A stretch of 36,362 nucleotides of DNA from a virus. A program made the position numbers and the translations under genes. Every line of letters begins with the position of its first letter. The first letter of the stretch is position 1. This document shows positions 27,090 through 36,362 of this stretch, piece after piece. The DNA lies in the IMG/VR virus record IMGVR_UViG_3300045781_000018, positions 1-36,362 of that record. One strand, written 5' to 3'. The notes beneath the pieces were generated by a model, which worked only from the letters and a program-made list of their open reading frames with translations, did not search any database and had not been told where the DNA came from.

Positions 27090-28163
27090 TTATTGCGAGC
27101 AGGCGACTTCAAGGCGAGCCATGAAAGCGTCTTGCAGGATGACCGTGGCGGTCCAGAGCTTCCAGCCCACCGTTCCGCGCTGGCCGAGGGGGTCGCCGAT
27201 GGCCGGCTTGGGGTTGACGACCATGGGCGTCATGGACGATTTTCCCTTCAGAGGGACCATGCCGAAGGCGTCGCGGCCGAAGATCAGGATCGGATAGACG
27301 TCGAGGTTGACGCCCGAGGTCGAGCGGCCCGATGTCGAGCCCGAAGCGCCGGCCACGAAGGAGCCGATCACCGCACCGGCGTCAGCCCATGGGGCGAACA
27401 CGGTGGAGGTGAGGTAGCGGACCTGCTCCAGAGAGCCGATTTCGCCCTCGAACGGCGTGGTGTGCGGGCCGTAATCCGCCACGACCTTGAAGTTGGCGAG
27501 CGAGCGCAGATCGCTTTCGAGATCGGGGTGGCAGATCGCCATGTAGCTGGCTTCGACCGACTTCGTGTTGAAGTCCGGCGTGGAGCCGACGACCTGGGTG
27601 ATCTTCTTGGCGTTCTGGCGGTTCAGCGCCGTGGTGACGCCGCGCTGATCGACAAGCGCGATCGGCGTCGCGATCAAGGTGCGCGAGGCGACCTTGTTGG
27701 CGTAGAAGACGTTCAGACCGGCCTTGAGCACGTTGAAGCGCAAGGTCTCCACGGTCACCGCGGCCTGCTCGCCGAGGATGTCGGTGGCGTTCTGCAGGAC
27801 AGGATCGGTGTGGGTGTCTTCGATCACGTCGGTGATGGTGACGAAGTCGCCATACTGCGCGAGCTGGACGGTGTAATCCTGGTTGGCCAGGACCGAGCCG
27901 TTGGGCGTCACGCCTTCGACGAGCGGCGTGGTGGCGACCGGGATGTAGAAGCCGGAGCCGGGGGTCTGCGTGCCGGCCGAGCCGCCAGCGCCAGACAGGA
28001 AGTAGCGGCGGAACTTGGCGGTCTGCGTCGAATTGGTCGGCAGCGGATAGGTCTGGCCGAACTTTTCGATATGCAGATAGGGCATCGCGCGCTTGAGCAT
28101 GCGAACCACGGAATAGGCGGCGACTGCCGGGGAAATATCGCCATAACTGGTCATTGCCGTCAT
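27090..28163 (-). CDS. major capsid protein, N4-gp56-like (357 aa)
   Basis: The N-terminus MTSYGDISPAVAAYSVVRML then KRAMPYLHIEKFGQTYPLP and TAKFRRYF is the signature of the N4-gp56 family of HK97-fold capsid proteins. Further family-like features are the linker GVTPNGSVLANQDYTVQLAQ, a helical region with ETLRFNVLKAGLNVFYAN, a middle YMAICHPDLESDLRSLANFK, and a C-terminal GRDAFGMVPLKGK followed by GTVGWKLWTATVILQDAFMARLE. The length is usual for the family. AAGGAG stands 8 nt before the ATG at 28163. It is preceded by the scaffold gene and followed by a decoration-like gene and terminator. Confidence 0.85.
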   Translation of the reverse strand: MTAMTSYGDISPAVAAYSVVRMLKRAMPYLHIEKFGQTYPLPTNSTQTAKFRRYFLSGAGGSAGTQTPGSGFYIPVATTPLVEGVTPNGSVLANQDYTVQLAQYGDFVTITDVIEDTHTDPVLQNATDILGEQAAVTVETLRFNVLKAGLNVFYANKVASRTLIATPIALVDQRGVTTALNRQNAKKITQVVGSTPDFNTKSVEASYMAICHPDLESDLRSLANFKVVADYGPHTTPFEGEIGSLEQVRYLTSTVFAPWADAGAVIGSFVAGASGSTSGRSTSGVNLDVYPILIFGRDAFGMVPLKGKSSMTPMVVNPKPAIGDPLGQRGTVGWKLWTATVILQDAFMARLEVACSQ

Positions 28164-29126: not shown

Positions 29127-29372
29127 TCACTCAGGTTGGTTGGCGATTAGGTTCAGTTCGAGGAGGAGCCGTCGATAGGCCACCGCCTCGCCTTGGTATC
29201 TTGAGAGGTCTGCCGGCGCGCAGGACACCAGCGCGTCCTTAGACTGCTCCAGCTTGAGCTGGAGGAGGTCCACCAGCGCTTTGAACTCCGAGCTGCCCTG
29301 GCTCGCTTTGAGCCGGGCCAGCAGGTCCGCCGCCCGCCTGGCCTTGGCCAATACTTCCGCCGGGACCGCCAT
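29127..29372 (-). CDS. small helical protein overlapping the portal gene (81 aa)
   Basis: The protein is all-helical by composition: VLAKARRAADLLARLKASQG; FKALVDLLQLKLEQSKDALV; YRRLLLELNLIANQPE. It starts at an ATG with GGAG 6 nt upstream, inside the portal gene in another frame, giving a 134-bp overlap in which the portal encodes only low-complexity Gly/Pro/Gln sequence. Its stop overlaps the GTG that could start the scaffold gene. A small helical protein between portal and scaffold may be a portal-assembly or head-packaging factor; no family is recognised. Confidence 0.6.
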   Translation of the reverse strand: MAVPAEVLAKARRAADLLARLKASQGSSEFKALVDLLQLKLEQSKDALVSCAPADLSRYQGEAVAYRRLLLELNLIANQPE

Positions 29373-31458
29373 TGTTCACTCCGTTTTCCAGTAGTTTCAG
29401 GGAGGCGTCGATGTTCGCGACATCGGCCTGGGTCGCGCTCTTGTTGCCTTGCGCGATGTTCTTGAAGGCGTCGGCCAGCAGCTTGCGCGTGTTGGCTTCC
29501 TGCAGCGCCTGGGCGCTCTGTTGGTCCTGCGACGCCTTGGCGTTGGCGGCGGCCTGGTCGCGATCGACGTCGACCTGCGGCTTGAGCAGGTCGGTGAGGT
29601 CGCGGGTGGCGAACCGCGCCTCGATCAGCTTGCGCATGTCGACGTGCATTTCTTCCGCCGGCTTGAGCGACGCCGCGAGCTGGTCGACCTGCATGCCGCG
29701 CACCTCCTTGGCGATCAGCGATGTCGCGCCGCGCGCTATGACGTTGTAGTCGCCGTCCGGGGCCTGGTCCGGGTTGAACTTGCGGTTGAACTCGACGACG
29801 CTCTGGATCACCGACATGGTGAAGCTGTCGAAGTTGCGCACAATGTCCTTGAAGGGGAGCGCCGCGTCGCCGCGCAGCATGCTCGCGCCGGCCGCCGTCC
29901 GCATCGGCTCGCTCGGGGTCTGGGACATGTCGCCGCCGGTGGCCGGACCGACGAAGGTCTCCATGTCGGCGAACTTCATGAACAGGTCGATGACCTTCAT
30001 CAGCTCGTCGAGGTGGCTCTCGATCTCGACGTTGCGCACCGCAGGGAACTGGGCGTCCGGGCCGGAGCCCTCGCGATACCAGACCTTGTAGGCGGCGGTG
30101 GAGGAGAGATCCTGACCAAGCAGCAAGAGATCAGTATTCAGTTCGAGGTTGGGGCCGCAGATCACCGAGGCGTTATCCAGCAGCATCCTGGTGGCCGCCG
30201 AGATCGCCATCTGGGTGTCTCGAATGACGTTGGGCAGCCCCATGCCGACCGGCGAGGTGTCATCCTCGTCGAACAGGAAGGTGTGGATGGTCTGCACGTC
30301 TGCGTCGATCTTGCGCCATGGGTTGATGTCGCACTTGATGACGTTGCCGTCGATCATCCACACTTCGGCGTCGATGTCGTCGGTGAGCTTGCCCTCGGGC
30401 ACGTCGCAGCCGCACATCTGCAGCCACTCGCCGGAGATCGGGCCATGCCAGGAGATCACCTCGTATTTCAAGGTCTCCGGCTTCATCTCGTTGACGTTGA
30501 CCTTGACGCCCATCGCGCGCAGCTCGGTCTCGTAAGGCTGCGGCCGATAGTTGCCCTGCTTGTTATTGTTGAGATATTTCTTGATCTGGTCGGCGAAGAA
30601 GTCCGAGCGCTTGGCAAGGTCGCGCACCTGATGGCGGGTCATCACCGTGCGCGTGAAATAGCCGTCCATGCTCTTGAGCGTCTTGGCGCTCATGTCGGGG
30701 TAGAAGTCCCAGATCGACAGCGCCTCGAACAGCGGCTTGTAGACGGTCTTCTTCTTGACCGACGGCTGTCCGGTGGCGTCGAGAGACCACACGGCGGTCT
30801 CGCTCTTGCGCACGTAGGGTCCGCGCAGCACGCCCATGCCATAAATGACGCCGGAGCGCACGACGTCGCGATTGAGCGTGACATAGTCCTCGCTCTGGTC
30901 GCCGCCCAGCTCCATCAGCTGATCGTCGATGAGGTCGGACAGCGCCTTGGCTCGAGCCTCGGACAGCGTCTTGATCGCCGCCATGACATAGGGGAGGTCG
31001 ACGGCCTTGGCCGGCGGCGCTGGCGTTCCCGGAGCGGTCGAGGCGGCGTCGGCCTTCTGGGCGTCGGCGATAGCCTGCACGACGTCGGAGACCTTGAGGT
31101 CCGGGCTCGGATCGGCGGTGAGCTGCCAGTTGCGCTCGGTGCCCTGAAACATCAGGTTCATGAGCCTGGAGAGCACCGAGATGCACTTCACCCGGGTCAC
31201 CCGCGGGTAGGCCTTGGAGCGGTTGGCGTTCAGCTCCTTCTCGATCTCGGGGTCATAAATGCCAAGATACTGGCGCTGGTTGCGGAGCCAGCGCAGCTCC
31301 GCGATGCGCCGGTCGGAGACGTACTCCATGAACAGCCGCGACAGCTTGTCGCCGATCATCTTCAGGTCGTCGGCCTTGATGACCTTGACCGGGCTGTCCT
31401 GGGCGTCCGGCACCGGCACCGATGGCGGGGTGATGGTGGCGATGTCAGTGGTGGCCAT
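29239..31458 (-). CDS. portal protein (739 aa)
   Basis: A large portal of the podovirus type, forming the dodecameric DNA channel at one capsid vertex. Supportive segments are YVSDRRIAELRWLRNQRQYL near the N-terminus, YPRVTRVKCISVLSRLMNLM, GMGVLRGPYVRKSETAVWSL, ALSIWDFYPDMSA, TFLFDEDDTSPVGMGLPNVI, TQMAISAATRMLLDNASV and a helical C-terminal part (KPAEEMHVDMRKLIEARFAT). The last ~50 residues are Gly/Pro/Gln-rich and overlap the next gene. GAGGG stands about 5 nt before the ATG. It starts 8 nt after the large terminase stop, the expected packaging gene order. Confidence 0.82.
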   Translation of the reverse strand: MATTDIATITPPSVPVPDAQDSPVKVIKADDLKMIGDKLSRLFMEYVSDRRIAELRWLRNQRQYLGIYDPEIEKELNANRSKAYPRVTRVKCISVLSRLMNLMFQGTERNWQLTADPSPDLKVSDVVQAIADAQKADAASTAPGTPAPPAKAVDLPYVMAAIKTLSEARAKALSDLIDDQLMELGGDQSEDYVTLNRDVVRSGVIYGMGVLRGPYVRKSETAVWSLDATGQPSVKKKTVYKPLFEALSIWDFYPDMSAKTLKSMDGYFTRTVMTRHQVRDLAKRSDFFADQIKKYLNNNKQGNYRPQPYETELRAMGVKVNVNEMKPETLKYEVISWHGPISGEWLQMCGCDVPEGKLTDDIDAEVWMIDGNVIKCDINPWRKIDADVQTIHTFLFDEDDTSPVGMGLPNVIRDTQMAISAATRMLLDNASVICGPNLELNTDLLLLGQDLSSTAAYKVWYREGSGPDAQFPAVRNVEIESHLDELMKVIDLFMKFADMETFVGPATGGDMSQTPSEPMRTAAGASMLRGDAALPFKDIVRNFDSFTMSVIQSVVEFNRKFNPDQAPDGDYNVIARGATSLIAKEVRGMQVDQLAASLKPAEEMHVDMRKLIEARFATRDLTDLLKPQVDVDRDQAAANAKASQDQQSAQALQEANTRKLLADAFKNIAQGNKSATQADVANIDASLKLLENGVNNGGPGGSIGQGQAGGGPAGPAQSEPGQLGVQSAGGPPPAQAGAV

Positions 31459-31466
31459 GTGGTCCC

Positions 31467-32951
31467 TCAGCGAAAGTTGTAGGCGTTTTTGAACTGGGGA
31501 ACGACGAACTTCTGCCCGCGTCCGCCCATCTTCTGCTCACGCTCACTCAGTTTGTGGAAATATCTGCACAGATACCCGAGGCCATCGCCAGGGTGTGAGT
31601 GCTCGTTCTTTTCGGGATCGGCACCTTTGACCACACCTTTAACCACATTCATCTCATAGCGCCAGCCACCTTTCAAGGCCCTGACGACCTTGGGGCACTC
31701 CAGAGCGTCGATCTGAAGCGCAGGGCCGACTTCCGTCAACAATGTGGTGAAATGTTCGATGGCGTCCAGACGCAGCGGCAGGCGGTTGTTGGTCTCGATC
31801 ACGCAGGGCCAGTGCTTCTTGAACGCCGCCACCACGGTGCGCTCGTCGGTCTGCGTTCGGTTGTTGGCCGCCGGATCGGGCGCGATGATCAGCTGGGCGT
31901 TTGGGAAGCGCCGTCGCAGGTAGGGTTTTACCACCTCGGTGATCAGCCTCTCAGCGCCATAGCCGATCTGCACGCACTCGCCGAGCACATTCAGGACGCC
32001 ATGGCTTGTCTCCTGCCCGAAGACCAGCGCCGACCCAGCCAGGCCGGGGTCAAACCCCGCGATCAGAGGGAGGTTGGGGTTGAAGATCAGCCCTCGCTTG
32101 GCGAGGTGCATGTCCGCCTTGAAGGTGGGGACCACGGCCTTTCCAGAGATGGAAAAGCCCCACTCGCTCTCCACGAACTGCTTGACCCAGGCCTCGGACT
32201 TCCCCTTGATCTGGTTGGCGTAATAGCCTCTCCCGCCAGGCAGGTTCTCGATGTTCTCGGCCTCCAGGCTCAGGCCGGACGGCTGCACGAAATACTTGAC
32301 GTTGCGCTCCTGCTTGAGGCCAAGCATGGCCCTGCGCATGTTGGAGGGGTCGTCATAGATGTCGATCTTGTCGACGTCGTTCGAGTTGTGGAGGTAGTCG
32401 TACCACCAGTTGTCCTCGGTCGAGGTGTTGCTCGAGCCCCACATGCCCCAGTTGGTCGGCAGGGTGCCGTCCGGCAGCTTGTAGCGTCCGAGGCGGGCGC
32501 TCAGCGCATCGACGATCTCGCGGGGGATCTGAACGAACTCGTCGAGGATGGCGAAGGATATTTCCAGTGACAGCACGCGGGCCACGTCGTCCGGGGTGTC
32601 GAGCGGCCTGAACAGCACCTCGCACTCGACGTCGCCGAACTTGAGGAGGAACTTCTTGTCGGTGGCGTTCCAGTGACCGGCCTCGCCATCCTTGAACCAA
32701 TAGCCCCAGGAGACGAGGGTGGTGTCTTTAAGCTGCGGCATCGTATTTCTGACAACCACAGCGCGAGAGCGGCGCACGCCATCCCGCGACGGCTCCTGTA
32801 AGGCAGCCATATATGCAAGCTTAAAGAACAGACCAGTAGTCTTGCCAGAGCCCACCGGGCCAACGATCCAGTCATAGAACAGCTCTCCAGGCTTGTGGTC
32901 CTTGATGAAGGCCTTGATGGTCGGCGGCGGCGTGTAGTCGATGACATGCAC
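31467..32951 (-). CDS. terL: terminase large subunit (494 aa, GTG start)
   Basis: This is the ATP-driven packaging motor with a nuclease domain. Walker A GPVGSGKTT lies at 31-39, and Walker B ISFAILDEF places the acidic pair at 137-138. The coupling-type motif SSNTST lies at about 173-178. The RNase H-like nuclease is marked by AGFDPGLAGSALV (Asp301), LIIAPDPAANNRT (Asp359) and HPGDGLGYLCRYF (Asp456). Length is normal. The start is GTG at 32951 with AAGGA 8 nt upstream; there is no in-frame ATG before the P-loop. It follows the small HTH gene by 1 nt and the small terminase, and is followed by the portal. Confidence 0.9.
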   Translation of the reverse strand: MHVIDYTPPPTIKAFIKDHKPGELFYDWIVGPVGSGKTTGLFFKLAYMAALQEPSRDGVRRSRAVVVRNTMPQLKDTTLVSWGYWFKDGEAGHWNATDKKFLLKFGDVECEVLFRPLDTPDDVARVLSLEISFAILDEFVQIPREIVDALSARLGRYKLPDGTLPTNWGMWGSSNTSTEDNWWYDYLHNSNDVDKIDIYDDPSNMRRAMLGLKQERNVKYFVQPSGLSLEAENIENLPGGRGYYANQIKGKSEAWVKQFVESEWGFSISGKAVVPTFKADMHLAKRGLIFNPNLPLIAGFDPGLAGSALVFGQETSHGVLNVLGECVQIGYGAERLITEVVKPYLRRRFPNAQLIIAPDPAANNRTQTDERTVVAAFKKHWPCVIETNNRLPLRLDAIEHFTTLLTEVGPALQIDALECPKVVRALKGGWRYEMNVVKGVVKGADPEKNEHSHPGDGLGYLCRYFHKLSEREQKMGGRGQKFVVPQFKNAYNFR

Positions 32952-34286: not shown

Positions 34287-34368
34287 CACACACACCAACA
34301 CAGTATTGATTAGTGGTTTCTAAAACTCACACACACACCAACACAGTATTGATTAGTGGTTTCTAAAA
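34287..34368. repeat. 39-bp direct repeat pair containing a CA tract
   Basis: Two identical 39-bp units (34287-34325 and 34330-34368, period 43) begin with CACACACACCAACACAG and end GTGGTTTCTAAAA. They lie directly behind the -35 box of the hydrolase promoter. They may bind a regulator of the divergent control region, or be recombination or duplication remnants. Confidence 0.85.
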
Positions 34369-34590: not shown

Positions 34591-35292
34591 ATGACCGCTT
34601 CCACCTTAAAGACCAATACCGCTCTTGTTTCCTTCGCCGCCTCGGCGCGCAACATGGCCAAAGCCGAAGGCAAGGTATCTGACCTTCTCGCCACGGTACG
34701 CGCCGACCTTGCGGCTTTCATCAGGGCCGGCGGAAAGCAGCCCGAAGCGCGCGCCCTGTTTTTGCAGGTCAATGTCTCCGTCATCCTTGGCGTCACCATG
34801 AAGGCTGCCGCGCTTGCCTTGTCAAAGAAAGTCCCGACCGCGACAAGCGGCGCGGGCGATGACGTGCGCACGGCTGATGAACAGAAGGCCGAGCGCAACG
34901 CTAATAAGCGCTGGTCGCGCGTGCTTGAACGCGAGGGTGTCAAGTCGACTTCCAAGAAAGGTGGCGCTCGCGTCTCCAATGTTGCAGCGAAAGACAACGC
35001 CAAGGAGGCCGAGAAAGTCTCCGAGACAAAAGATCCGGTCCCGCACGACGCGCCCTTGGCTGTCGCCATCCCCCGCGCTACGTCACGCCATGACGTTCGC
35101 TCATTCATACAGCTTGAGGCCGCGCGCTTTGAGAAATTCATGAATGCCAACGCTGCGCAGCTTGACATTGACACGCGGCCCATCCTCGCGTCGTTCATTG
35201 CAAGCGTCAAAGCCTTGCCCGTTGAGCAAGCTCCGGTTGTGGTTCCTGCCAGCGTCGTGGCAGGAAAGGCGCGTAAATCACGCGGCAAATGA
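34591..35292 (+). CDS. early-region protein of unknown function (233 aa)
   Basis: The ATG at 34591 is chosen (AAAGGA 8 nt upstream); an upstream in-frame ATG at 34555 would precede the predicted transcript start. The N-terminal ~85 residues are helical (SFAASARNMAKAEGKVSDLL; ARALFLQVNVSVILGVTMKA). A long charged, Lys/Ala-rich middle (EQKAERNANKRWSRVLERE) follows, with a helical segment HDVRSFIQLEAARFEKFMNA and a basic end (AGKARKSRGK). Basic tail and helices suggest nucleic-acid binding, but no family is recognised. It is flanked on both sides by the TTTGAGAC palindrome, raising the possibility that it is the regulator or a target of it. A strong terminator follows. Confidence 0.65.
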   Translation: MTASTLKTNTALVSFAASARNMAKAEGKVSDLLATVRADLAAFIRAGGKQPEARALFLQVNVSVILGVTMKAAALALSKKVPTATSGAGDDVRTADEQKAERNANKRWSRVLEREGVKSTSKKGGARVSNVAAKDNAKEAEKVSETKDPVPHDAPLAVAIPRATSRHDVRSFIQLEAARFEKFMNANAAQLDIDTRPILASFIASVKALPVEQAPVVVPASVVAGKARKSRGK

Positions 35293-35343: not shown

Positions 35344-35369
35344 AGGCCCGGCGAAAGCCGGGCCTTTTT
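35344..35369 (+). terminator. rho-independent terminator after the 233-aa gene
   Basis: A 9-bp stem AGGCCCGGC/GCCGGGCCT with a GAAA tetraloop is followed by a T run (35365-35369). This is a textbook intrinsic terminator on the plus strand. Confidence 0.88.
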
Positions 35370-35410
35370 GCGTTGGATTGAGCACTCGATCTTGTCGCCG
35401 CGCACGCCAA

Positions 35411-35500
35411 ACAAAGATCGAGTGCTGGAAATACACAGCATGATCTGATGCAAAACAAAGATCGAGTGCTGGAAATACACAGCATGATCGGATGCAAAAC
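35411..35500. repeat. 44-bp tandem repeat, two copies
   Basis: Units at 35411-35454 and 35455-35498 differ at one base. Each contains one form B and one form A motif of the array, separated by CTGGAAATACACAGC. The duplication shows that the A-B pair is the amplified unit. Confidence 0.88.
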
Positions 35501-35707
35501 GCTTCAGCACCCGATCCTGACAGTAGTAAATCAGTACGAAAATCAGACGTCACGCAGCCCAAGATCGGGTGCGCAAACCGTTTTGCATCCGATCATGACG
35601 CCAAAACAGGGCAAAACACGCCATGATCTGATGCTTAACCGGCAATAAGCACCCAGCCAATCCATGATCTGATGCGAAACCGCGCCTTGAAAACTCCAAG
35701 GAAATGA

Positions 35708-35767
35708 GGGGTCTTATCTATTCTATTTCTTTTAAAAGGTAAGATAGTTAGTTAAGACCCCATTTTT
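35708..35767 (+). terminator. long AT-rich hairpin with T-tract
   Basis: Outer arms GGGGTCTTA (35708-35716) and TAAGACCCC (35753-35761) enclose an imperfectly paired AT-rich interior and are followed by ATTTTT on the plus strand. It is probably an intrinsic terminator, though it could also be an unwinding or extruding element within the repeat region. Confidence 0.5.
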
Positions 35768-35795
35768 GAGGGGATACGCATGGGTTTTCGGAAAC

Positions 35796-35880
35796 GAACG
35801 CAAGATCTTGGTGTTCAGCACCCGATCTTGTTCAACACCCGATCAACCAAGATCTGATGCGAAACAAAGATCTTGCGTTC
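35796..35880. repeat. 14-bp inverted repeat bracketing a cluster of array motifs
   Basis: GAACGCAAGATCTT (35796-35809) and its exact complement (35867-35880) flank three further motifs of the array. The symmetric arrangement suggests a defined nucleoprotein site rather than random repeats. Confidence 0.75.
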
Positions 35881-36076
35881 AAACCCGTAAAAAAGAACCG
35901 CTATGTTTTTGCGCACTATTCGACCTTTTTGGCTAACGCATTGATCCAACTCATTAATCTCAGCACCTAAACTTGTGTTGTAGTTAGAATGTGTGTTGGG
36001 ATCAGCTGTCTCCCTACAGAACAGGCCCACACGTTTAGCACCCGTTCTCGCTTCTGGATTTTGCATCAGATCTTGC

Positions 36077-36105
36077 TTGACAACGACCTTGAACTCTGCT
36101 ATACT
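36077..36105 (+). promoter_or_regulatory. strong rightward sigma70 promoter with extended -10
   Basis: TTGACA (36077-36082), a 17-bp spacer and TATACT (36100-36105) preceded by TGC predict a start near 36112. A motif of the GATC array ends 3 bp before the -35, and palindromic operator copy 3 lies about 32 bp after the start. It drives the partial gene at 36178. Confidence 0.8.
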
Positions 36106-36177: not shown

Positions 36178-36362
36178 ATGACAGACGAACCGAAAAAGAA
36201 AAAAGGCTGGAACAAGGGCAACACGCTGCACGGCATGTCGCAGTCAGCCACCTACCAGACATGGCGACGGCTCAAGCTCTCATGCGGCCCGACAGCCAAA
36301 CGCCCATGCAAGAAGTGGCCGCGAACAATGGACGGCCGGTGGATGGCGGACTTCATCCTCTT
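36178..36362 (+). CDS. N-terminal part of an early phage protein, possible HNH-associated type (3' end outside window)
   Basis: The start ATG has TTGGAGAG 4 nt upstream. The 61 visible residues begin with a Lys cluster (MTDEPKKKKGWNKGN), then HGMSQSATYQTWRRLKLSCG and CKKWPRTMDGRWMADFILF. The pattern G-M-S-x-S/T-x-T-Y-x-x-W-x-x-L/M-K-x-x-C ... C-x-x-W ... F resembles the short Cys-containing module found in phage proteins linked to HNH or AP2-type endonucleases. The gene runs off the window, so no active site can be checked. The strong promoter and operator indicate a regulated early gene. Confidence 0.5.
   Translation, partial: MTDEPKKKKGWNKGNTLHGMSQSATYQTWRRLKLSCGPTAKRPCKKWPRTMDGRWMADFIL

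Follow-up and report, generated by a model that had tools for sequence, protein, structure and literature searches.

The DNA analyzed here, which we call the window, is a complete IMG/VR virus record, a single contig of 36362 bases. Its late genes, among them those for the capsid, a portal-like protein and the terminase, are on the minus strand, and its early genes are on the plus strand, beginning at 34591 with a gene that we call X. A dense repeat array is placed between gene X and the following early gene (ATG at 36178). The place of the array, hereafter its seat, is about 1 kb from the point at which the late and early genes diverge, and the array is 2.4 kb from the start of the terminase gene. 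The features are listed in Table 1.

Table 1. Positions of genes and sequence elements in the window
Feature	Position	Strand	Remarks
PrimPol-DUF927 helicase, C-terminal 304 aa	3..917	+	Gene cut by contig end; C-terminal winged helix; proposed initiator
Giant protein, 2196-2197 aa	17607-24200	-	Structural region; zero cysteines
Capsid gene	27090-28163	-	Late
Portal-like gene	29239-31458	-	Late
Terminase gene	31467-32951	-	Late
Palindrome TTTGAGACGCTGTCTCAAA	34480..34498		Upstream of gene X; separate element
Gene X, 233 aa	34591..35292	+	Early; fast-evolving family, all-helical in the model
Palindrome TTTGAGACGGCGTCTCAAA	35299..35317		Directly past gene X; separate element
Left iteron set, ten AWGATCKGRTGC sites	35382..35675	both	35382-, 35414+, 35440+, 35458+, 35484+, 35507-, 35561+, 35585-, 35623+, 35664+
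Dyad, left arm GGGGTCTTA	35708..35716		Perfect 9 bp; border of AT-rich segment
Candidate DNA unwinding element	35712..35771	.	Least stable 60 bp of the contig (nearest-neighbour energy)
Dyad, right arm TAAGACCCC	35753..35761		Perfect 9-bp dyad
Right iteron set, six sites	35818..36074	both	Exact: 35818-, 35849+, 36063-; weaker: 35835-, 35963-, 36038-
Promoter-like site, TTGACA-17-TATACT	36077..36105	+	Sigma-70-type, 11/12; TG precedes second hexamer; upstream of next early gene
Palindrome TTTGAGACGCCGTCTCAAA	36144..36162		Upstream of next early gene; separate element

The GC content of the array region is 0.46, compared with 0.637 over the whole contig. Of the six ORFs (65-99 aa) that run across it, none matched a PHROGs or Pfam family at an E value of 0.1. 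A preliminary description of this DNA had called the segment AT-richer and gene-free, and these values agree with it. Two other elements were also seen nearby. At 34289-34368, in the interval that separates the late genes from the first palindrome, a sequence of 37 bp or more is directly repeated, with copies starting at 34289 and at 34332. The other is a hairpin at 35345-35369, which was read by eye and was not reported by the terminator scan.

The array and its AT-rich centre

The preliminary description had counted about sixteen copies of two related motifs in 0.7 kb. The repeats are real, but both motifs reduce to a single 12-bp consensus, AWGATCKGRTGC, which is non-palindromic. Exact copies of this unit occur 9 times in the contig, all of them within 35440-36074, and shuffled sequences contained a mean of 0.03 and at most 1. 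When one mismatch was allowed, the contig contained 17 copies, 13 in 35382-36074 and 4 elsewhere, as against a mean of 1.49 and a largest value of 4 in the shuffled whole contig. A looser cut (at most 3 mismatches from the best seed) gave 16 sites in the region, which is the number first described; the sites that this cut adds (35835, 35963 and 36038) are weaker.

The sites are arranged in both orientations, the head-to-head pair at 35561-35596 that had been described is present in the site list, and the start-to-start gaps of the 13 sites are irregular, ranging from 18 to 214 bp. That is, the two-way and irregular layout bears out the earlier opinion that the array is not a CRISPR. Within the left set, a 44-bp tandem duplication (35406-35449 and 35450-35493, 95% identical) is the source of two neighbouring sites. 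No copy of the motif was found near 918-1027 of the window, just past the helicase gene fragment.

Unwinding near 35700-35800 had been proposed as a check, and the least stable 60 bp of the contig was indeed found there, at 35712-35771. With a 100-bp window the same segment is second in rank. At the looser cut, ten array sites lie to its left and six to its right.

Two other ideas about the array were considered and rejected. The first was that Dam/GATC is its key. GATC occurs 18 times in the array region, where 2.6 are expected; however, the units of the arrays in five relatives (L109, L111, L120, L128 and the cultured Pseudomonas phage Rollin) are without GATC. As for helical phasing, the distances between plus-strand sites (18, 26, 41, 44, 62 and 77 bp), compared by hand, share no phase.

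The seat of the array in related phages

Relatives were collected by searches with the capsid, the terminase and the small terminase, and 80 of the 206 capsid matches were kept. Their contigs are 60.6-66.3 kb in length. The capsid also has similarity, at low identity, to N4-like phages. The window resembles the N4 group (Schitoviridae) in this capsid similarity and in its giant cysteine-free protein of the structural region. It differs in that the contigs of its relatives are shorter than the 70 kb of N4 and that the giant protein has 2196-2197 aa as against about 3500.

The motif of the window is not shared by these relatives. In 165 relative loci (overlapping pieces counted), AWGATCKGRTGC reached at most 2 sites (with at most 1 mismatch) per 1 kb anywhere, and its sole exact copy lies inside a coding start, in L048. 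When viral contigs were scanned for pairs of sites, 20 stretches came up, none with more than 3 sites and none an array. In the genome-contig collection, the pattern of two exact sites was found in 3 stretches, none of them a comparable array: one is a regular 16-bp tandem, and two have three sites at up to 1 mismatch. The preliminary description had also considered a common intergenic repeat of the host, and this pattern search speaks against it.

We examined the relatives by a test that is blind to the array of the window. The lowest-GC 900 bp between 1.5 and 7.5 kb upstream of the terminase was searched for repeated 12-mers and compared with 40 shuffles. The terminase was located in 97 sequences, 49 of which had 3 kb upstream, and 32 of these were distinct. 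The seats of 19 of the 32 scored above all 40 shuffles. Because late-gene windows attain similar scores, we accepted only five two-way, non-palindromic arrays with scores of 11 or more: Rollin (22), the window (19), L128 (15), G001 (13) and G002 (11), the scores of the last two being equalled by their own late-gene windows. L159 (12, a one-way simple repeat), G020 and L170 (11 and 10, palindromes), L083 (10, one-way) and others with scores of 9 or less were left out of the count. In the remaining contigs the repeats were weaker, one-way or palindromic, or none was found at the sensitivity of the test. L109, with 2947 bp upstream of its terminase, falls below the 3-kb cut and was counted apart. 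In the accepted contigs and L109, the arrays sit 2-7 kb upstream of the terminase.

Each of these arrays has a unit of its own. With up to 3 mismatches and in both orientations, there are 11 sites of ACACACCACGAC in L109, 10 of AAGGTTGTGTTG in L111/G001, 8 of TGGAAAGAATGG in L120/G002 and 8 of TCGTAGACAAAC in L128. Rollin has 9 or 10 sites of the 12-bp unit AAAAGGTAGYAA; the record ends in the same 21 bases with which it begins, and the number is 9 if the end repeats the beginning and 10 if it does not. The matches to the unit are confined to the seat in the whole maps of G002 (8 of 8) and G001 (3 of 3), and also in Rollin within the parts examined. A change of arrangement is seen in two close relatives, L168 and L170, which are 94% identical across a 370-bp core in which an AT-rich stretch is still enclosed by an inverted pair. 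Beside this core, TTTAATAGGTGT-type repeats occur four times in one orientation in L168 and twice in the other orientation in L170 (0.2-0.3 expected). The repeat unit was kept and its arrangement changed.

Some further observations were made at these loci. A short element near AACTACTATGCCG was seen by eye, in variants, in the interval from the array to the end of gene X of L168, L069, L082, L109, L159 and L073; the 8-mer ACTACTAT occurs in 6 of the 21 seats compared, where 0.27 would be expected, and the AACTACTATGCCG-like element was not seen in the window. G002, the contig of L120, encodes a tyrosine-integrase-like protein and an ArdC-type anti-restriction protein, and may therefore be temperate.

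The low stability of the seat is kept in the relatives. Nine maps that include the seat were compared, Rollin without 7.4 kb of its sequence; G006 and G013 were dropped because their contigs begin within the terminase gene or close to it. In seven of the nine, no 60-mer of the genome is less stable than the one at the seat: the window, G002, G003, G004, G005, G008 and Rollin. In G001 and G020 the 60-mer at the seat is second in rank. In 7 of 8 maps the GC content over 900 bp is also lowest at the seat, the exception being G002; Rollin was not ranked because its missing part stood as N. GC skew, for which a minimum near the seat had been suggested, is inconsistent across the relatives: in G003, G005, G008 and G020 the cumulative minimum is no more than about 4 kb away from the seat, but G001 has its maximum near the seat, the skew of G002 rises almost the whole way round, and G004 has neither extreme nearby. 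Gene orientation is a confounder of this measure. Thus, of the conservation that the preliminary description had asked for, the motif itself is not a part, but the seat and its melting minimum are kept, and arrays of other units occur in a minority of the relatives.

A PrimPol-DUF927 helicase and the proposed replication origin

The window begins inside a plus-strand gene, of which it holds the C-terminal part; the primase and ATP-binding parts and the DUF927 core lie outside the contig. The full protein of the relatives resembles a primase-polymerase apparently fused to a DUF927 helicase. DUF927 was found in 17 of the 23 records searched; the window gave no match because its gene is cut. The longer model phrog_25314 was matched in 19 of the 23, including the fragment of the window (4.6e-14). 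A profile of eight relatives matched SaPIbov1 Rep (8tch, E 1.8e-21) and SCCmec Cch (5dgk, E 1.2e-17). The protein is a member of this helicase family.

The AlphaFold model of the fragment has a mean pLDDT of 66, with 69-91 in the winged-helix blocks, and its top fold matches are 5dgk (3.6e-5) and 8tch (8.8e-4). The Z score of the model is 11.2 to 8tch_B and 8.8 to 5dgk, with an rmsd of 13-16 across both domains. The winged helix alone resembles 5vfx, an accessory protein of pCW3 bound to oriT (Z 9.0; 93 residues at rmsd 3.4). Pfam primase matches among the eight relatives are weak (LigD_Prim-Pol in 2, RepB_primase in 1); phrog primase models have matches in G001, and in the window this part of the gene lies beyond the contig end. 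G001 also has genes for a DNA polymerase of family A and for helicase and nuclease proteins.

The preliminary description had proposed looking for co-occurrence of the array with an initiator or a ParB-like gene. A ParB-like gene turned up in no more than 2 of the 22 related records searched. The DUF927 helicase is frequent, yet G002 has an array and no DUF927, with a different Prim-Pol protein instead, and the initiator module may therefore be exchanged. The helicase also occurs where no strong array of this kind was seen (G003, G004, G005 and G008). From middle to middle, the helicase (rep) gene and the seat are 22.5-28.4 kb apart in seven maps taken as circular; circularity is assumed for G003, G004, G005 and G008, the last three of which would be farther apart if linear, and the seat of G005 is placed about 1 kb off.

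SaPI Rep acts through its C-terminal domain on an iteron origin (PMC7581432), mapped Escherichia coli PICI origins always have two iteron sets on either side of an AT-rich region (PMC6092414), and fusions of primase domains with DUF927 are known in mobile elements (PMC5862659). We therefore regard the array as working like a PICI origin, because a helicase of the SaPI Rep/Cch family is combined with iterons on both sides of an AT-rich segment.

We think that the array is the origin of DNA replication of this phage, with a probability of roughly two in three (about 0.68). The preliminary description had named an iteron origin, a centromere and a multi-operator region. The iteron origin is the best supported of these, because the sites flank the least stable 60 bp, some relatives share the architecture and the place, and the SaPI Rep/Cch family includes the replication protein. 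The centromere was weakened by the scarcity of ParB-like genes, and the operator region is a minor reading.

We infer a course of initiation as follows, in which the putative link between helicase and array comes from the protein family and the layout. Copies of the PrimPol-DUF927 helicase would bind both iteron sets through the C-terminal winged helix and would melt the AT-rich segment between them. The helicase would then load itself and unwind outward, the fused primase part would begin new strands, and a DNA polymerase (of family A in G001) would extend them. Among the lineages with arrays the unit varies and the layout stays, as expected if a putative initiator and its sites change together.

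As compared with the pri-rep-ori of PICIs and SaPIs, the likeness lies in the same DUF927 helicase family (8tch, 5dgk), with an apparent primase fusion in the relatives of the window, and in two iteron sets around an AT-rich segment (PMC6092414 and PMC7581432). There are also differences. The present phage has its own capsid and terminase and is not a satellite, and its array has more sites, spread over 0.7 kb in both orientations, and is at least 22 kb from rep instead of immediately 3' of it. Because of the distance of the rep gene, we did not file the array as a member of the PICI replicons. Iterons differ between PICIs.

Iteron plasmid and lambda-type origins are similar in having repeated sites, here those of a putative initiator, beside an AT-rich unwinding element. 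Those origins have mostly direct repeats, with loading by DnaA or of a host helicase, and in the RepA/RepE type of plasmid origin the direct repeats are in one orientation with regular spacing. In contrast, the present sites are two-way with gaps of 18 to 214 bp, and the proposed initiator is the helicase itself. In the oriS and oriL of alphaherpesviruses, binding sites also stand on both sides of an AT spacer; this is an analogy of layout only, since the virus and the initiator are unrelated.

We tentatively suggest a wider reading, to which we give slightly less than an even chance. That is, this N4-related podophage lineage would use a PICI-type origin whose self-loading helicase, of the SaPI Rep family and fused to a primase, is encoded more than 22 kb away at the far end of the early region, and the iteron code would be rewritten from lineage to lineage while seat and layout are kept. 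If the codes are lineage-specific in this manner, related phages in one cell would therefore not fire each other's origins.

In the literature that we covered (most subscription papers were outside its scope), no such array is described for N4 phages, and the papers on these phages, phage iterons, SaPI origins and DUF927 describe no such origin for the group. If the reading is true, an origin and an initiator can be named for these mostly uncultured N4-related phages, a phage replicon is linked to those of SCC elements and phage satellites, and the origins, alike in layout but different in iteron code, form a natural series for measuring the co-evolution of initiator and sites. Rollin is cultured and has a strong array, and the reading is therefore testable at the bench.

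Other readings of the array and neighbouring elements

The array could instead be a multi-operator control region, on which a phage regulator switches the early promoter at 36077, perhaps between early and late transcription. We consider this unlikely and keep it as a minor reading because the last array site (36063-36074) ends 2 bases ahead of the -35 hexamer of a good promoter-like site; the seat is also near the divergence of late and early genes. However, most of the sites are 0.2-0.7 kb off that promoter and surround the melting minimum, and the early genes of G001 already bear another repeated element, the palindromes described below, at their starts.

A region for packaging or concatemer processing, comparable to the blocks of short repeats beside the T7 ends, is improbable. 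The start of the terminase gene is close, and in the window, L109 and L122 the contig ends inside the array or within 0.3 kb of it, but contig ends at arrays can reflect an assembly broken by repeats. The maps of G001, G002 and G020 continue through the seat and have their matching ends elsewhere. Moreover, the blocks adjoining the T7 ends are direct repeats, whereas the array sites point both ways.

It is quite improbable that the sites serve protein X as a nucleoid, copy-control or accessory origin protein. Gene X adjoins the array in the window and L109, the two array holders in which the profile detected it, and the profile located it close to the seat in 20 distinct contigs, one of them the window; the matches comprise 23 distinct sequences, of which the two weakest have E values of 0.003-0.004. 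It evolves fast, with 14-27% identity to the copy of the window. On the other side, the profile gave no match in the array-bearing G001, G002 and L128 or at the start of Rollin, X is retained in L037 and L081, where no array was seen, and its all-helical model has no fold match at E 0.001 in the PDB or among viral models. An ORF at the position of X in L111/G001 has a similar end, as judged by eye. A search with X as the handle gave 18 pattern stretches, 0 of them confirmed, and the X alignment has no sufficiently conserved stretch. In L037, L040 and L081, X occurs in two tandem copies.

That the array is a centromere to which a ParB-like protein binds in a plasmid-like state is very improbable: ParB-like genes exist in two relatives, G001 (C1:22555-23442) and G013 (C1:38636-39412), but phrog_1033 is missing from the other 20 of the 22 related records (some of them fragments, the window not among the 22), and the array unit is non-palindromic. 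There is hardly any chance that the array is a dispersed host repeat or a chance cluster, since, although the motif is not common to the relatives examined, its counts are far above those of shuffles and the genome-contig collection holds no comparable array in its 3 stretches.

Apart from the array taken as an origin, the window has palindromes of the form TTTGAGAC-N3-GTCTCAAA near early gene starts (3, with 0.03 expected). G001 has 10 of TTTGCGAC..GTCGCAAA, several of them 15-30 bases ahead of an early start codon. A repeated stem of their own was found in G004, G005 and G020 by script and in L109 and L128 by eye, and no stem occurred more than twice in G002, G003, G006, G007, G008 and G013. 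These palindromes may serve a virion RNA polymerase as hairpin promoters, or they may be operators. The protein of the relative StenR_269 has been assumed to be such a polymerase from its size, helix content and missing cysteine. The giant protein of the window, which is similarly placed among the structural genes, gave no sequence match in the PDB (phmmer) and none to this putative polymerase of StenR_269. In L168 (3600-4620) and L170 (1-1300), the core of the putative origin region is 94% identical and different palindromes stand at corresponding places, TTTGTTAGA..TCTAACAAA in L168 and TTTGAGAC..GTCTCAAA, the stem of the window, in L170. This difference looks like a swap of recognition specificity.
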